NCBI RefSeq assembly: GCF_030818485.1
Contig: NZ_JAUTAJ010000001.1
Coordinates: 1-64,000, forward strand
Length of the DNA stretch: 64,000 bases
Direction of reading: 5' to 3'
Source: Pseudoroseomonas cervicalis
Lineage (GTDB): Bacteria; Pseudomonadota; Alphaproteobacteria; Acetobacterales; Acetobacteraceae
Shown one piece after another: positions 3,945-54,998 of the stretch. Made by a program: the position numbers and the translations under genes. The notes beneath the pieces were generated by a model. It did no database searches and was not told the origin of the DNA. It saw nothing but the letters and a program-made list of their open reading frames with translations. Each line of letters begins with the position of its first letter. Positions within the stretch are counted from its first letter, which is position 1.

Positions 3945-4054
3945 GCGAGGCTAACCGCTTCGGTCAGCAATGGGCAAGTTCTCTGGACGGCACGGCCTGG
4001 CTACCTCCTGACCAGCGCCGGCCTCCGCCGGCCAGCCAGGAGAGGAGCTTTCCC

Positions 4055-4777
4055 ATGGACAAGGTCGTTCTGATCACCGGCGCTTCCAGCGGCATCGGCG
4101 CCGCCATCGCCCGCGAACTGGCCACCGCCGGCGCGAAGCTGCTGCTGGGCGCGCGCCGCACCGACCGGCTGGAGGCGCTGGCCGAGGAGCTGAATGCCGC
4201 CGGCGGCACGGTGCGGGTCCGGCGCCTCGACGTCACCGACCGCGCCGATATGGCGGCCTTCGCCGACACGGCGCTCGGCGCATGGGGCCGCATCGACGTG
4301 ATGGTGAACAATGCCGGAATCATGCCGCTCTCGCCCATGGCCTCCCTGAAGCTCGACGAGTGGGAGCGCATGGTGGATGTCAACATCAAGGGCGTGCTCT
4401 GGGGCATCGCCGCCGTGCTGCCCGTGATGCAGCGCCAGGGGCAGGGGCATGTCGTCAACATCGCCTCGATCGGCGCGCTCAGCGTCTCGCCCACCGCGGC
4501 GGTGTATTGCGCGACGAAATACGCGGTGCGCGCCATTTCCGACGGGCTGCGGCAGGAGAGCCAGGCGCTGCGCGTCACCTGCATCCATCCCGGCGTGGTG
4601 GAGAGCGAGCTGGCCGACACCATCACCGACGCCGCGGCGGCGTCGCTGATGCGCGACTACCGCGCCATCGCGCTGAAGCCGGACGCCATCGCCCGCGCCG
4701 TGCGCTACGCCATCGAGCAGCCGGGCGATGTCGACGTCAACGAGATCGTCGTGCGCCCGACCGCCGCGGCGCACTGA
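4055..4777 (+). CDS. Short-chain dehydrogenase/reductase
   Basis: 240 residues with the full classical SDR signature: TGASSGIG nucleotide-binding motif near residue 8, NNAGI near residue 83, catalytic Ser in INIASIGALS-like VNIASIG, and YCATK (Tyr/Lys pair) near residue 152. PG at HPGVVESE follows. The ATG at 4055 is preceded by AGGAGAGGAG. Classical SDRs of this type oxidise or reduce alcohols and ketones with NAD(P)(H); the substrate is not evident. Divergent to the LysR gene that probably regulates it. Confidence 0.9.
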   Translation: MDKVVLITGASSGIGAAIARELATAGAKLLLGARRTDRLEALAEELNAAGGTVRVRRLDVTDRADMAAFADTALGAWGRIDVMVNNAGIMPLSPMASLKLDEWERMVDVNIKGVLWGIAAVLPVMQRQGQGHVVNIASIGALSVSPTAAVYCATKYAVRAISDGLRQESQALRVTCIHPGVVESELADTITDAAAASLMRDYRAIALKPDAIARAVRYAIEQPGDVDVNEIVVRPTAAAH

Positions 4778-33137: not shown

Positions 33138-34127
33138 TCAGGCGGCGCGGCGACGCCCCGCGACGGCCGGCTTCGGCGCCGCCTCCGCCATTTCGGCCGC
33201 ACCCTCCACCGCCTCGACATCATCCTCCTCGAGCAGCGGCATGCTCTCGAGCGGCGTCAGCGCGGTGATGTTGGTGGTGGGGTAGAAGGCGACCAGCCAG
33301 GATTTCAGCGGCGTCTGCCCGGCGGGCTTCGGGAAGCCCTTGTCCAGCGCGCGGCGCAGCCGCGGGTCGATCAGCGCGATGCCGTAATCCGGCAGGCTGC
33401 GCTTGTGCGTGGCATAGGCGGCGAGCTCCGCCTTGAAGCGGCGCAGATCCTGCGTGGTGCCGACGCGGTTGCGCAGCTTGGACAGCCCCATGCGGAAGCC
33501 GCCCGGCGGGCCGCTGCGGGCGATCTCATAGAGCCGCTTGGCCACCGGCGGCAGCTCGAAATATTTCGGGCTGTAGGTCAGGAAATGCTTGTCCTGCACG
33601 ATGGCGCGGAACAGCCAGGCGCAGAGGGTCAGCTCCACCGCGCGCATCTGCTTCTGCCCGTCGCGGCCGCGGCGGTAGAGGATCTTGTATTCGTCGAGCC
33701 AGCCGAAGCCGCGATCCTCGCCCTCGCCGCCGGTCTCGATATTGGTGCGCACGAAGGTCGATTTCAGCCGCGCCAGCGATTCCTCGAGCCGCTCATAGGC
33801 CGAGCCGCCCGGCGTGCTGCCGGTGGTGATGAAGAAGTCATGCGCGGTGAAGGTGATGCGGGCGGATGGCGCCTCGCCGCGGTTGATCTTGTCGGCGATG
33901 AGCGAAGCCGAATAGACCAGCAGCTCCTTGTCCCAGATCGAGGCGACGCCGTGCTTGGTGCCGACCACCTCGATCCAGGTCTTGCCATCATCGTAGCGGG
34001 GCAGCTCGGTCTCCTTTTCCCGCCGCAGCGAGAAGAAGTTGTAGACCATGGTGTTGCGGTCGCCCTTGACCTTGCCAACCAGCGGGCTGTCGGTCGGGCC
34101 GAAATTGAAGGCCTGCTGATCGTCCAT
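33138..34127 (-). CDS. repA: Replication initiator protein RepA (RPA family)
   Basis: 329 residues, basic. It begins MDDQQAFNFGPTDSPLVGK and shows the blocks NFFSLRREKETELPRYDDG, SIWDKELLVYSASLI, and FTAHDFFITTGSTPGGSAYERLEESL typical of the RPA replication initiator family of alphaproteobacterial plasmids. YSPKYFELPPVAKRLYEIAR is also present. Tandem winged-helix folds in this family bind iterons and start replication. Its upstream region holds the iterons, so it probably also represses itself. This gene makes the window part of a plasmid-like replicon. Confidence 0.92.
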   Translation of the reverse strand: MDDQQAFNFGPTDSPLVGKVKGDRNTMVYNFFSLRREKETELPRYDDGKTWIEVVGTKHGVASIWDKELLVYSASLIADKINRGEAPSARITFTAHDFFITTGSTPGGSAYERLEESLARLKSTFVRTNIETGGEGEDRGFGWLDEYKILYRRGRDGQKQMRAVELTLCAWLFRAIVQDKHFLTYSPKYFELPPVAKRLYEIARSGPPGGFRMGLSKLRNRVGTTQDLRRFKAELAAYATHKRSLPDYGIALIDPRLRRALDKGFPKPAGQTPLKSWLVAFYPTTNITALTPLESMPLLEEDDVEAVEGAAEMAEAAPKPAVAGRRRAA

Positions 34128-34199
34128 GCCGCGTCCACGCCTCCTGCGCCTCCGTTTTGGACGAGCCCGCGGCGCGATGCCAGCCTTGCCTGCTGCCCT

Positions 34200-34719
34200 G
34201 TCGGCGTGGCGACGAGTCTTTTTGCCGCGCCCCCTCGTCGTGACGCCGACACTGCGGGTCGGGCGGCCGCGCGGCACTTGTCCACAGGCTTCCCTCGTCG
34301 TGACGCCGACAGGCGGCGCGCTCCTCGTCGCCACGCCGACACAGCGTCGTCCTTTGGCCGACGCGGACTCGGCGCCACGCCGTCACGGACTCGGCCCGAC
34401 ACCGACGCATCCTCGTCGGAACGCCGACGAATTTCTCCGCAGATCACTGAAAGTAAAAGGGTTTTCGGCCACCATAACCTTGTGACCTGATAACTCTGCA
34501 ACTGCTGTGACACGCTAGAAGGGCAGAGAGGGACAGCGCGCACGGCGCGCCTGGCCGCCCTGCCCGGGGGCCGGTGCGCGGGTGCGTCGGCGTAAGGACG
34601 AGTCCAGTCCGGCCATGAAGGGCAAAATATCAACCTCGGGTTGATTTGCGGTCGGCGCAATCGATCCGGAAGTAAAAGCCGGCCATGGACAACCGCGATA
34701 GCTCGTCGTGACGCCGACA
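34200..34719. repeat. oriV: Replication origin with iterons
   Basis: The 763-base region 34128-34890 between repA and the next gene holds repeats of CTCGTCGTGACGCCGACA. Plus-strand copies are at 34234, 34294, 34324 (TG to CC), 34412 (TG to GA) and 34702. Inverted copies are at 34200-34216 and 34586-34602, and degenerate ones at 34369 and 34390. An AT-richer stretch occupies 34430-34500 and another 34620-34680. This is the standard build of an iteron-controlled origin. The rest of the region shows no protein-like frame. Confidence 0.85.
34278..34286 (+). promoter_or_regulatory. DnaA-box-like site in the origin
   Basis: TTGTCCACA differs by one base from the consensus DnaA box TTATCCACA and lies between iteron copies, as in many plasmid origins that recruit host DnaA. 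Confidence 0.5.
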
Positions 34720-35236: not shown

Positions 35237-35464
35237 ATGAGTGATCCCCTGAACGGCCGCGAGATCTGGGTGGTCTGGGGCGGGGTCTTCCGGGATACCA
35301 GCTTCCAGGATCTGGAAGAGGGCACGGAAGAGCTGCACGGTCCCTTCCACAGCGAGGCGGCGGCCGAGAAGGTGTGGCTCGAGCGCATGCGCCGCATGGT
35401 CGACATCGCCTCGCACCGGCTGTTCGTGCTGCGCGCCGTCCCGGTGCCGGGCAAGGCCGGCTGA
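35237..35464 (+). CDS. DUF4170 family protein
   Basis: 75 residues; GGAAGGA precedes the ATG. Core WVVWGGVFRDTSFQDLEEGTEELHGPF then VWLERMRRMVDIASHRLFVL matches the DUF4170 family of small alphaproteobacterial proteins of unknown function. Its stop overlaps the next start (TGATG). Confidence 0.8.
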   Translation: MSDPLNGREIWVVWGGVFRDTSFQDLEEGTEELHGPFHSEAAAEKVWLERMRRMVDIASHRLFVLRAVPVPGKAG

Positions 35465-36937: not shown

Positions 36938-36944
36938 GGATCAA

Positions 36945-36973
36945 CCGTCAACGTTGCAAGTTGACGTTGACGG
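36945..36973. promoter_or_regulatory. Inverted repeat upstream of parA
   Basis: 10-bp perfect arms, CCGTCAACGT at 36945-36954 and ACGTTGACGG at 36964-36973, with a 9-base centre. Located 75 bases before parA. ParA has an N-terminal helix-turn-helix and such proteins autoregulate, so this is a candidate par operator. Confidence 0.5.
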
Positions 36974-37008: not shown

Positions 37009-37022
37009 TTCTGACGTCAGAA
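37009..37022. promoter_or_regulatory. TTCTGACGTCAGAA palindrome, copy 1 (candidate parS/operator)
   Basis: Perfect 14-bp palindrome 26 bases before the parA ATG; flanking GGG and TCCC extend the symmetry imperfectly. Identical cores occur after parB and at 54359. A repeated palindrome beside parAB is the expected look of a ParB binding site. Confidence 0.55.
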
Positions 37023-37048
37023 TCCCGCCCGGATCGCTGGGGGGCGGC

Positions 37049-38071
37049 ATGGACGGGGACGCGCTGCGCAGGCTGCGCCAGCAGCTGAGGCTGAGCCAGT
37101 CGGAGCTGAAGGAGGCGCTGAACACGGCGCTCGGCCGCAGCTATGACAAGCCGCGCATCTCGCGCTGGGAGAATGGGCGCGAGCCGATCCCGGAGGAGGT
37201 GGCGCGCAGCATCGCCGCCCTGGCGGATGCCAGGCCGCGCCATGCCCGCATCCTGGTGCTGGCCAACCAGAAGGGCGGCGTCGGCAAAACGACGTCGGCG
37301 CTGAACCTGGCCTGCGGCCTGGCCCGGCAGGGGGAGCGCGTGCTGCTGGTCGATCTCGACCCGCAGGCCACCGCCTCGGTCGCGCTGCTGGCCGCCGGCC
37401 ATGTCGAGGCCTGGCGCCAGGGCCGCACCATGGCCCATGTCATCCTGCGCGACCAGCCGGTGGAGCAGGCCATCCTCGGCCATGACGACCCGCTGCTGGC
37501 CGGCCGCGCCCCCTTCGACCTGGCGCCGAGCCATATCGAGCTGGCCGAGACCGATGGGCGGCGCGAGCCCGGCTTCGATGTCGCGCTGCGCGAGGCGCTG
37601 GAGGCGGTGCGCGGCCGCTACGACACCATCCTGATCGACGCGCCGCCCAATCTCGGCATGCTGACGGTGATGGGGCTGGCGGCGGCGGATGCCGTCATCA
37701 TCCCGGTGCGCACCGAACCCTATGACAGCATGGGCGTCGGCCTGATCCTGTCGACCATCGGCAAGGTGCAGCGGCGGCTGAACCCGGCGCTGCGGCTGGC
37801 CGGCATCCTGCCGACGCAGTATGGCGCCCGCAAATCGGTCGATCGCGAGGTGCTGGAGCAGCTGGTCGCCATCATGCAGGGCCGCGCCCCGGTGCTGGAG
37901 CCGGTGCCCTCCTCCGCCATTTTCGGCCATGCCGCGCGCAATGGCCGCATCGCGCTCGAAGCCTCGCCCGGCGCCGCGGCGGTCGCCGTCTATGCCCGGC
38001 TGGCCGCGGCGCTGGCGGGCGGCACCGCCCTGCCCGAGGCCCGCCTGACGCCCATGGAGGAAAGCGCATGA
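37049..38071 (+). CDS. parA: Partition ATPase ParA with N-terminal DNA-binding domain
   Basis: 340 residues. N-terminal helix-turn-helix (about 1-60: LRRLRQQLRLSQSELKEALN, KPRISRWENGREPIP), then the ATPase with deviant Walker A NQKGGVGKTT near residue 74, DLDPQATASVALLA, and IDAPPNLGMLTVMGL. The HTH plus ATPase layout is that of type Ia partition ATPases, which also repress their own operon. ParA moves ParB-bound plasmid DNA over the nucleoid. parB starts in an ATGA overlap. Confidence 0.93.
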   Translation: MDGDALRRLRQQLRLSQSELKEALNTALGRSYDKPRISRWENGREPIPEEVARSIAALADARPRHARILVLANQKGGVGKTTSALNLACGLARQGERVLLVDLDPQATASVALLAAGHVEAWRQGRTMAHVILRDQPVEQAILGHDDPLLAGRAPFDLAPSHIELAETDGRREPGFDVALREALEAVRGRYDTILIDAPPNLGMLTVMGLAAADAVIIPVRTEPYDSMGVGLILSTIGKVQRRLNPALRLAGILPTQYGARKSVDREVLEQLVAIMQGRAPVLEPVPSSAIFGHAARNGRIALEASPGAAAVAVYARLAAALAGGTALPEARLTPMEESA

Positions 38072-38937
38072 GCCGCGCCCGCAACCGTCCCGCCTCCCCC
38101 GTGCTGGGTGCCGCCATGTCGGTGATCGGCGCCGCGGCCGAGGGGCTGGTGCCGCAGGACAGCCGCTTCCGCCACAGTTTCGAGGCGCCGCTGGAGCGCA
38201 TCCACCCCGACCCCGACCAGCCGCGCAAGCATTTCGACGCGGCGGAGATCGCGGCGCTGGCCGCCACCATGGCGGCCGAGGGCCAGCTGCAGCCGGTGCT
38301 GCTGCGCCGCCATCCCGAGCGGCGCGGCGAATGGATCCTGGTCGCCGGCGAGCGCCGCTACCGCGCGGCGAAGCACAATGGCTGGTCCAGCCTGCTGGCC
38401 ATCGAGCATGAAGGCGATGCCGCGCTCGCCGCCCTGCTGGAAAACCTGCAGCGCCAGGATCTGACGCCGGAGGAGGAGGCGCGGGGCCTGCAGCGCCTGC
38501 TCGCGACACGCGGCATGACCCAGGTCGCGGCGGCCTCGCTGCTCGGCCGCAGCACCGCCGAGATCAGCGCGACGCTGCGCCTGCTGACCCTGCCGGAGGA
38601 CTTCCTGTCCCGCGCCGTCACCCTGCCGCGCAACCTGCTGGTGGAGCTGGCGCGGCTGGAGGACGGACCGCTGCGGGAGAAGCTGCTACGCCAGGCGGAG
38701 GCCGGGACGCTGACGGTGCGCGGCCTGCGCGCCGCGCGCAGCGCCCCTGCCCTGCCCGCGCTGTCGTCCGAGCCTGCTTCCGGGCGCCCGTCGACCGCCC
38801 GCCTCGGCGCCGCCCTGTTCGACCGGATGGAGGCGGCGCTGGAGCAGCGCCATGCCGAGGAGACCCCGCTCAGCGCCGCCGAGCGGCGGCGCCTGCTGGC
38901 GCTCAGGGCGCAGATCGAGGCGCTGCTCGAAGCCTGA
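38068..38937 (+). CDS. parB: Partition protein ParB
   Basis: 289 residues. N-terminal ParB/Srx domain with HPDPDQPRKHFD, LQPVLLRRHP, VAGERRYRAAKHNGW, and ENLQRQDLTPEEEA (CTP-binding boxes). Central helix-turn-helix MTQVAAASLLGRSTAEISATLRLLTLP. A C-terminal dimerisation tail follows. Binds parS and loads with CTP. Overlaps parA by 4 bases. Confidence 0.95.
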   Translation: MSRARNRPASPVLGAAMSVIGAAAEGLVPQDSRFRHSFEAPLERIHPDPDQPRKHFDAAEIAALAATMAAEGQLQPVLLRRHPERRGEWILVAGERRYRAAKHNGWSSLLAIEHEGDAALAALLENLQRQDLTPEEEARGLQRLLATRGMTQVAAASLLGRSTAEISATLRLLTLPEDFLSRAVTLPRNLLVELARLEDGPLREKLLRQAEAGTLTVRGLRAARSAPALPALSSEPASGRPSTARLGAALFDRMEAALEQRHAEETPLSAAERRRLLALRAQIEALLEA

Positions 38938-38944
38938 CGGGGGT

Positions 38945-38968
38945 GGAGATTCTGACGTCAGAATCTCC
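38945..38968. promoter_or_regulatory. 24-bp palindrome, copy 2 of the TTCTGACGTCAGAA motif
   Basis: Perfect 24-bp palindrome starting 8 bases after the parB stop; its centre (38950-38963) is the 14-bp motif also found at 37009 and 54359, extended by GGAGA and its complement. Strong candidate parS; it could in addition fold as a terminator hairpin for parAB. Confidence 0.6.
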
Positions 38969-53440: not shown

Positions 53441-54364
53441 TTGGCGGCGCCGCCCCCCGATGAGCGCGCGCTGCGCTATTTCCTGGCGGTGACGCGCAGC
53501 GGCTCGATCCGCGGCGCGGCGGCGGCGCTGGGCGTCGCCGCCTCGGCGATCAGCCGCCAGGTGGCGGAGCTGGAGGCGCTGCTCGGCCAGCCGCTGCTGG
53601 AGCGCCTGCCGCGCGGCGTGCAGCCGACCGAGGCCGGCCGTGCGGTCGCCGAGCATGCCCGCGCGCAGGAGGAGGCGACGGCGGCGCTGCGTGAGCGGCT
53701 GCACCGGCTGCGCGGCGGCGCCGAGGGCACGGTGCGGCTCTGCTGCGGCGACGGCTTCCTGCCCGGCCTGCTGGAGGAGGGGCTGGCCGGTTTCGCCGCC
53801 GCCCATCCCGGGCTGCGCTTCGTGCTGCTGCATGGCGGCACCGACCGGGTGCTGGAGGCGGTGGCCGAGGGCGAGGCGGAGCTGGGCCTGGCCTACAACC
53901 CGCCGGCGCATCCGGCCCTCGTCAGCGCCGCGCGCGCCCGCCAGCCGCTGCTGGCGCTGCTGCCGGCCGGCATGGCGGCGCCGGCGGCGCCCGTGCCGCT
54001 TTCGGCCCTGGCGGAACAGCCCTGCGCGCTGCTCTTCCCCGGCCATGGCATCCGCCATCTGCTCGCTCGCGTCGAGGCCGATGGCGGCTTCCGCCTGGCG
54101 CCGCGGCTGGAGACCGGCTCGGTCGAGACGCTGCGCCGCTTCGTCCTTTCCGGCATGGGCCTGACCTTCCTGCCCGGCTTCGCCGCCGCGCGCGAACTGG
54201 CCGAGGGCCGGCTGCACGCCGTGGAACTGGCCGACCCGCTGCTGGCCGAGGCCAGCGCGCATCTGCTGCACCGCGCGGCGCGCCCGCTGCCCGCCGCCGC
54301 CGCCCTGCTGCTGGAGCATCTGGCGCGCCATCTCTCCCTCTTCGCCGGGATTGCGAGGTTCTGA
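53441..54364 (+). CDS. LysR-family transcriptional regulator
   Basis: 307 residues from a TTG start 4 bases after the hybrid-kinase stop. Winged helix-turn-helix: ALRYFLAVTRSGSIRGAAAALGVAASAISRQVAELEALLG. The effector-binding domain follows, with LCCGDGFLPGLLEEGLAGF and GSVETLRRFVLSGMGLTFLPGFAA. No divergent target gene, unusual for LysR; co-transcription with the kinase is likely. The stop codon falls inside the 14-bp palindrome. Confidence 0.88.
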   Translation: MAAPPPDERALRYFLAVTRSGSIRGAAAALGVAASAISRQVAELEALLGQPLLERLPRGVQPTEAGRAVAEHARAQEEATAALRERLHRLRGGAEGTVRLCCGDGFLPGLLEEGLAGFAAAHPGLRFVLLHGGTDRVLEAVAEGEAELGLAYNPPAHPALVSAARARQPLLALLPAGMAAPAAPVPLSALAEQPCALLFPGHGIRHLLARVEADGGFRLAPRLETGSVETLRRFVLSGMGLTFLPGFAAARELAEGRLHAVELADPLLAEASAHLLHRAARPLPAAAALLLEHLARHLSLFAGIARF

Positions 54365-54372
54365 CGTCAGAA
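54359..54372. promoter_or_regulatory. TTCTGACGTCAGAA palindrome, copy 3
   Basis: Perfect 14-bp palindrome overlapping the LysR stop codon, with the same core as the two copies flanking parAB about 15 kb away. Candidate distant parS. Confidence 0.5.
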
Positions 54373-54427: not shown

Positions 54428-54685
54428 ATGCCCAGCAGCTACACCATCGGCCCGCATTTCGAGGCCTTCGTGCAGCGCCAGCTCGCCAGCGGCCGCTACA
54501 GCTCCGCCAGCGAGGTGCTGCGCGACGGGCTGCGCCTGCTGGAGCAGCACCAGCGGCAGCAGGACTCCCTCGAACAGCTGCAGCGCGCCTGGCAGGAGGG
54601 CATCGCCAGCGGCGAAGCTGGCGCCCTCGACATCGAGGCGGTGAAGCAGGAAGCCCGCGCCCGGATGGCCGCGCGCGGACGCTGA
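54428..54685 (+). CDS. parD: ParD-type antitoxin
   Basis: 85 residues; GGGAGG precedes the ATG. Ribbon-helix-helix fold: SYTIGPHFEAFVQRQLASGRYSSASEVLRDGLRLLEQHQ, then a flexible charged tail that in the family wraps the toxin. Binds and neutralises ParE and represses the operon. The toxin gene begins 1 base after its stop. A plasmid-stabilising module. Confidence 0.93.
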   Translation: MPSSYTIGPHFEAFVQRQLASGRYSSASEVLRDGLRLLEQHQRQQDSLEQLQRAWQEGIASGEAGALDIEAVKQEARARMAARGR

Positions 54686-54686
54686 A

Positions 54687-54998
54687 TTGCTGCGCCAGAC
54701 CGCCCGCGCCCGCGCCGACCTGGTCGAGATCTGGACGCATGTCGCGCAACAGGACCCCGGCGCCGCCGACCGGCTGCTCGACCGCATCGCCGCGCGGCTG
54801 GAGATCCTGAAGGACTTCCCCAATGCCGGCACCGCCCTGCCGGCCCTCGCCCCCGGGGCGCGCATGCTGGTGGAAGCGCCCTATCTCATCCTCTACCGCA
54901 GCGACGAACAGGGCGTGCTGCTGGTCCGCGTGCTGCACGGGCGGCGCGACATCGACGCCGCCCTCTTCGCCGAAGGATATGACAGGCCGGGGGAATGA
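54687..54998 (+). CDS. parE: ParE-type toxin
   Basis: 103 residues from a TTG start 1 base after parD. RelE/ParE fold: RQTARARADLVEIWTHVAQ, AARLEILKDFPNAGTALP and RMLVEAPYLILYRSDEQGVLLVRVLHGRRD. Family members with this short form usually poison DNA gyrase. The stop codon lies inside the inverted repeat element that begins at 54987. Confidence 0.92.
   Translation: MLRQTARARADLVEIWTHVAQQDPGAADRLLDRIAARLEILKDFPNAGTALPALAPGARMLVEAPYLILYRSDEQGVLLVRVLHGRRDIDAALFAEGYDRPGE

Follow-up and report, generated by a model that had tools for sequence, protein, structure and literature searches.

In type Ia partition systems, such as F sopABC and P1 par, ParA has an N-terminal HTH, its operator lies before parA and the centromere lies after parB. 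The Bsr ParABS systems of Burkholderiales secondary replicons have their own ParB and a 16-bp palindromic parS, according to PMC5450999. This parS is described there as having a T-rich 5' end and a 6-bp core of 2 C, 2 G, 1 A and 1 T with a central CG. The same paper states that a replicon-specific parS avoids incompatibility. For ParB itself, PMC7383237 calls R173 and G201 absolutely conserved and finds N178 conserved in ParB and Noc. In the alphaproteobacterial repABC replicons the parS of a plasmid or megaplasmid lies inside or near the partition operon and sometimes at a distance, as PMC9040568 describes it.

The window, by which we mean the whole 64-kb stretch of DNA that was analysed, belongs to a 120,470-bp contig (C1). 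The genome consists of five contigs and 4.89 Mb. The window has the marks of a type I ParABS system. The parA translation carries ANQKGGVGKTT, as expected of a Walker-type ATPase. Its ORF overlaps that of parB, whose product has ParB_N and an HTH. There is also a parS-type repeat on the same replicon, near parAB. The ParB has GERRYR at residues 94-99 and ENLQR at 125-129, which are putative CTP-binding motifs of ParB_N. The features are collected in the table.

Table. Features of the partition region and of the replicon, in window coordinates
Feature	Position	Strand	Remarks
RPA-type replication initiator of the replicon	33138..34334	-	PF10134, 164.9 bits
TCAAC/GTTGA element	36941..36971	.	TCAAC at 36941 and 36948; GTTGAC at 36960 and 36966
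parS candidate 1, TTCTGACGTCAGAA	37009..37022	.	exact match; 26 nt upstream of the parA ATG
parA, ParA ATPase with N-terminal XRE-like HTH, 340 aa	37049..38071	+	PF13614 (AAA_31), 150.9 bits; PF13560 (HTH_31); PF01381 (HTH_3)
parB, ParB_N + HTH_ParB, 289 aa	38068..38937	+	PF02195; PF17762; TIGR00180, 124.8 bits (cut-off 58.45)
ParB recognition-helix stretch, residues 160-173, GRSTAEISATLRLL	38545..38586	+	E165, S167 and A168 vary between motif classes
parS candidate 2, 24-bp perfect palindrome	38945..38968	.	core 38950-38963; directly after the parB stop codon
LysR-type regulator, stop codon (54362-54364) inside palindrome copy 3	53441..54364	+	
parS candidate 3	54359..54372	.	exact match; overlaps the LysR-type gene stop codon; 55 nt before parD
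parD (54428-54685) and parE (54687-54998), toxin-antitoxin pair	54428..54998	+	PF03693; PF05016; adjoins palindrome copy 3

Three known categories were tried for these genes and rejected. The ParB is not a Noc: it scores 126.1 bits against the NCBIfam Noc model, which has a cut-off of 315, and the Noc site (NBS), presumably TATTTCCCGGGAAATA, does not occur within 3 mismatches on C1. Nor are parA and parB the partition genes of a repABC replicon. They score 84 bits against a cut-off of 348.45 for RepA and 51.9 against 201.5 for RepB. The third category is the canonical chromosomal ParB/parS pair. The initial annotation had not seen the canonical parS, and indeed no TGTTTCACGTGAAACA is found within 3 mismatches on the whole of C1. 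When the ParB is aligned with the Caulobacter chain, T163 stands opposite R173, A168 stands at 178, and E193 stands opposite G201, where gaps nearby make the assignment less sure.

The initial annotation had proposed instead that a different 14-bp palindrome serves as parS. This palindrome, TTCTGACGTCAGAA, does occur three times in the window, each time exactly, and no further site is found there at up to 2 mismatches. It was right to call three chance copies improbable: 100 shuffles of the window gave a mean of 0.02 sites and none reached three. Around the middle copy the symmetry extends to a perfect palindrome of 24 bp, GGAGATTCTGACGTCAGAATCTCC, also just as described. A count across the replicon and the rest of the genome confines the motif to C1, which has 3, 0, 0, 0 and 6 sites at 0, 1, 2, 3 and 4 mismatches. 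The chromosome and the other three contigs have none at 0 or 1 mismatch, and only a single site at 2 mismatches, on the chromosome contig C4. An equal frequency on the chromosome, which the initial annotation had named as a refutation, is therefore not seen. The host chromosome has near-canonical sites of its own. Two of these are one mismatch off the canonical parS and lie about 1.5 kb before the chromosomal parB (3.02 Mb), and a third, two mismatches off, lies about 13.5 kb beyond it.

One could suppose that the palindrome after parB terminates transcription between two converging genes and has nothing to do with the other copies. It does sit between parB on the plus strand and an ORF on the opposite strand. 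However, there is no T-run at this palindrome, and the same core is found upstream of parA and inside the parB ORFs of relatives. What is conserved is the sequence, not merely the pairing. Of the explanations considered here, a terminator has the slimmest chance of being right.

We searched 397 genomes of the host's family for TTCTGACGTCAGAA and for the window ParB, with at most six ParB candidates scored per genome. The exact motif is found in 30 of the 397 genomes and its reversed control in none of them (0/397). Among the matches listed there are 48 ParB matches of at least 141 bits, in 46 genomes, and the next score at most 111 bits. Judged by these listed matches, 25 of the 46 genomes that have the family ParB also have the exact motif, compared with 5 of the 351 that lack it.

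The motif comes in classes. Class I is TTCTGACGTCAGAA with one mismatch allowed, class II is TTCTGA, a variable centre and TCAGAA (TTCTGANNTCAGAA), and class III is ATGCAACGTTGCAT. Across the 46 genomes we count 70 sites that are class I or class I-like (TTCKGACGTCMGAA), 22 that match the class II pattern (TTCTGAWNTCAGAA) and 16 of class III. The reversed controls of the three patterns give 0, 1 and 1 matches. The contigs with the family parB hold 99 of these 108 sites (68 class I, 16 class II and 15 class III). These contigs make up about 2% of the sequence (4.39 of ~206 Mb, a ratio based on rounded genome sizes and a sum that includes short draft contigs). The nine sites on other contigs are in G108, G323 (three), G179, G307, G279 (two) and G376, and the sole exact TTCTGACGTCAGAA of the G108 genome lies on a contig other than that of its parB. 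It must be said that a site on a parB contig need not be of the class of that ParB: the class II pattern also matches TG-centred sites on the class I ParB contigs of G258 and G384.

Position was examined in 50 loci, which are the DNA around the family ParB matches plus two added loci (L046, L051). One copy with a masked stretch was swapped for the same contig fetched separately. In 46 of the 50 the palindrome or a class variant lies at the operon, inside it or within about 2 kb of it, so the idea that related parAB operons share the site holds. It extends to complete plasmids of the Azospirillaceae and Geminicoccaceae, picked by their ParB protein, which have the palindrome at parAB. Copies of TTCTGACGTCAGAA are few in three complete plasmids: one of 128,710 bp has 4 exact copies, one of 454,210 bp has 2, and one of 690,188 bp has 2 exact copies and two more with one mismatch. 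The 50 loci contain 91 sites. The stretch 1-200 bp before parA accounts for 26 of them, the stretch 0-200 bp after parB for 23, and parB itself, at about codons 150-189, for 14; another 23 are more distant on the upstream side and 5 on the downstream side. Several parB genes (those of L046, L158, L159 and L162) end in a stop codon that is part of the palindrome.

These positions bear on two other readings. The first is that some other transcription factor, encoded by the plasmid or by the host, binds the palindrome, for example to control parD-parE or the LysR gene. Copy 3 would suit such a role by its place before parD. That place is the same in a close relative, the P. cervicalis plasmid pL11-D (L243 36148-36787), where the copy also overlaps the end of the LysR gene and parD-parE again follow. 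G130 likewise has scattered copies without the family ParAB. Against this, 63 of the 91 sites lie in parB, in the 200 bp that follow it or in the 200 bp that precede parA (the loci having been selected by their parAB), and the motif changes with the ParB helix, as described below. We think this reading highly improbable, if a little less so than a terminator.

The second is that the palindrome is the operator of ParA's N-terminal HTH, which would make it an autoregulatory site and no centromere. The 26 sites just before parA speak for this, and ParA's HTH also varies between the classes. But copies are also found after parB, within it and at distances of up to tens of kb. There is also a second repeat, TCAAC/GTTGA, which is present three or more times in the 130 bp before parA in 39 of 49 loci (27/31 in class I, 2/5 in class II, 7/7 in class III and 3/6 in unassigned loci). 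This repeat stays constant while the palindrome changes. Since it is common to classes whose palindromes differ, it is the likelier candidate for the operator of ParA's HTH, and for the same reason we reject the palindrome as that operator in our main reading. We still allow it a small chance, the largest of the three alternatives. The TCAAC/GTTGA element may perhaps overlap a -35 element.

Five of the 30 genomes with the exact motif have no family ParB (G130, G016, G018, G337 and G239). G130 has seven exact copies and three with one mismatch, scattered over large contigs that go with neither family ParA nor family ParB; of the five copies examined (L013, L203-L206), four are inside ORFs. G016 has two pairs of palindromes (L031 1501-1560 and L207 2049-2109) with 32-33 bp between the copies. 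Each pair comes directly after a DUF4170 gene, and a homologue of this gene is near parAB in the window at 35237-35464. A plasmid that once integrated may have left the G016 pairs behind. In G018 and in G337 there is a single palindrome. In G239, close to the end of a contig, the palindrome precedes a ParA match that four in-frame stops interrupt. One possibility is that lost or unassembled plasmids account for the genomes with the motif and without the family ParB.

A further argument is the relation between the motif and the ParB recognition helix. By the limits of the script, the 50 loci divide into 31 of class I, 5 of class II, 7 of class III and 7 that are unassigned. In three of these seven (G073, G142, G303) a variant of class I, TTCTGACGTCCGAA, is found 1.9-2.0 kb before parA; in G303 it is reached across the start of a contig taken as circular. 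The rule is that a helix with E-x-S-[AGS] goes with TTCTGACGTCAGAA, one with [DE]-x-N-G goes with TTCTGANNTCAGAA, and one with R-x-[SN]-R goes with ATGCAACGTTGCAT. Helix and motif class agree in 42 of the 50 loci and conflict in one; the other seven have no motif within the scripted limits. In class I, residue 165 is E or D, residue 167 is S in 30 of the 31 loci, and residue 168 is A, S or G. All five class II loci have D or E165, N167 and G168, and all seven class III loci have R165 together with R168. The sole conflict is L197, where the helix is of class II and the site centres are CG, CA and TG. Six of the seven unassigned loci have a class I helix and one has a class III helix. No site of their own class was found near parAB in L179 and L180 (class I helix) or in L195 (class III helix); in L182 (class I helix) the search yielded no more than an imperfect GTTTCGACGTCTAAAC, which lies within parB close to where its relatives have the site. 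Absent sites therefore break the rule in three class I loci and one class III locus. Six chromosomal-type ParBs of relatives have KSRSH[VI]AN at the recognition helix. As a separate observation, L182 (G220) has a CRISPR-like array of repeats spaced at 61 bp, with the core CCCCGCGCAGGCGGGG, directly after parB (at about 3955-4500 when parB is on the plus strand).

Other columns of ParB also follow the classes. At column 193 every class I and class II row has E, and the class III rows have G, S or Q. A scan of 32 dereplicated ParBs for class-linked columns ranked 193 2nd and 167, 168 and 165 6th, 10th and 12th, so the recognition helix is not first among the class-linked positions. Since the scan did not single out the helix, our claim of covariation rests on the table of helices and motifs, on the nine plasmids below and on the helix's known role. 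The classes are also clustered on the ParB tree, with 7 changes compared to 21.7 when the labels are shuffled. This implies that helix and motif are not independent observations at each locus; motif class and ParB phylogeny are confounded. One genome has two classes together. One plasmid of K. baliensis (G022) encodes a class I ParB and all its sites are of the class I type; another encodes a class II ParB and all its sites are of class II. This pair fits selection against cross-binding, which PMC5450999 argues for in Burkholderia.

We picked 15 further plasmids by their ParB match row among the matches listed (60 of 126 plasmid records). They were picked after the helix rule had been read off, and the rule was not formally registered beforehand. 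Nine of the 15 have a helix of one class, and all nine bear the motif of that class at parAB. Four are class I (P. cervicalis, Indioceanicola p2, Tistrella and R. mucosa), one is class II (K. saccharivorans p92689) and four are class III (K. saccharivorans CV1, Gluconobacter, A. pasteurianus and A. aceti). These are not nine independent tests. The ParB of the P. cervicalis plasmid is 93% identical to that of the window, and others among the nine resemble loci already used. Indioceanicola and Tistrella weigh the most, as they are from other families. Among the remaining plasmids, that of Acetobacter orientalis (L254) has the helix QSRVNK, with K at 168, and the palindrome ATGTCACGTGACAT twice. 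A Niveispirillum plasmid (L252) has RTQVNR, with Q at 165, and GTGCAACGTTGCAC twice. Indioceanicola p3 has TGTAAAACGTTTTACA twice, two Azospirillum plasmids have one or two unrelated palindromes, and the same scan found no palindrome in one further Azospirillum plasmid. On plasmid pL11-D, flagellar, chemotaxis and minCD genes lie near the replication and partition block (L243 6569-14448).

As a control of the method, the palindrome scan was run on 72 distant ParB loci. By a tally of rows it returned the canonical TTTCACGTGAAA in 29 and GTTCCACGTGGAAC in 8. Anywhere in the fetched DNA these are present in 36 and 8 of the loci, and the window motif is in 0 of the 72. Other recurring non-canonical palindromes are seen at distant parAB loci as well (GTGTCGGACGTCCGACAC, ATGCGACGTCGCAT, TATTTGACGTCAAATA and ATGTCGGGCGCCCGACAT; L052/L053, L058, L061 and L064).

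The palindrome is limited to the replicon with parAB, it is kept next to parAB in relatives, and it changes together with the ParB helix. These observations support the candidate parS of the initial annotation. We argue that the palindrome is very probably the parS centromere of the 120-kb plasmid, and we predict from sequence that it is read by the plasmid's own ParB. If this ParB works as others of its family do, a dimer would place one HTH on each half-site of the palindrome. It would load there with CTP and slide to the flanking DNA. It would then recruit ParA, which would move the plasmid copies apart, and by ParB reading the palindrome each daughter cell would receive a copy. Expression of parAB may in addition be subject to feedback through the site close to the parA promoter. 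On this view the palindrome differs from the chromosomal parS because the recognition helix of this ParB has changed. With both helix and site changed, the plasmid would not have to compete for the chromosomal ParB, nor the chromosome for that of the plasmid.

A stronger claim is that one plasmid ParB family of the acetic acid bacteria and their relatives has a readable specificity code. Residues 165, 167 and 168 of the helix, perhaps with 193, whose counterpart 201 is a known specificity residue, would set the centromere. S167 with A, G or S168 would give a central CG, N167-G168 a loosened centre, and R165 with R168 the half-site ATGCAAC. Taken as a whole, this claim seems to us as apt to fail as to hold. 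The plasmids of A. orientalis (K168, ATGTCACGTGACAT) and Niveispirillum (Q165, GTGCAACGTTGCAC) are natural intermediates, in which other nearby residues differ too. A code with natural intermediates implies that the family may hold at least five mutually blind ParB-parS pairs, and these may have been sorted by selection for coexistence in one cell.

The initial annotation called the parS novel, and this stands for the sequence. The exact 14-mer TTCTGACGTCAGAA, the class I motif searched as a string, was not found in the papers searched. A search for parS with Roseomonas gave no partition paper by title, one for ParB, parS or plasmid with Acetobacteraceae found nothing, and we recognised no paper in these searches as describing this plasmid ParB family or its parS. 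The window sequence is new as far as these searches go. The principle is not new, since replicon-specific parS palindromes are already known from the Burkholderiales Bsr systems (PMC5450999). What is added here is a proposed centromere sequence for a plasmid family found across the Acetobacteraceae, Azospirillaceae and Geminicoccaceae. The natural series of ParB helices and matching sites makes the evolution of partition specificity and plasmid compatibility directly testable, and it supplies candidate orthogonal ParB-parS pairs.

It remains to place the locus among the known systems. It is like repABC replicons in having the site of a plasmid inside or near the partition operon and sometimes at a distance, as PMC9040568 describes them. 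It differs in being replicated by an RPA-type initiator, and its parA and parB are far below the RepA and RepB cut-offs. ParA has an N-terminal HTH as in type Ia, and the candidate operator before parA and candidate centromere after parB would correspond to those of type Ia, but the sequence of the site differs from those of F and P1 and the sites here are dispersed and within genes. As with the ParB/Noc proteins of PMC7383237, a protein with ParB_N and an HTH would read a palindrome through its recognition helix, and a few residues would shift the site. The description of Bsr parS in PMC5450999 is matched by GTTCTGACGTCAGAAC (core GACGTC), the 16-bp form found in many relatives. This is a likeness of site description, and both the lineage and the sequence are different. 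The present family also departs from Bsr in having at least three site classes within one plasmid ParB family, a class II without the central CG, and a site that is often inside parB.
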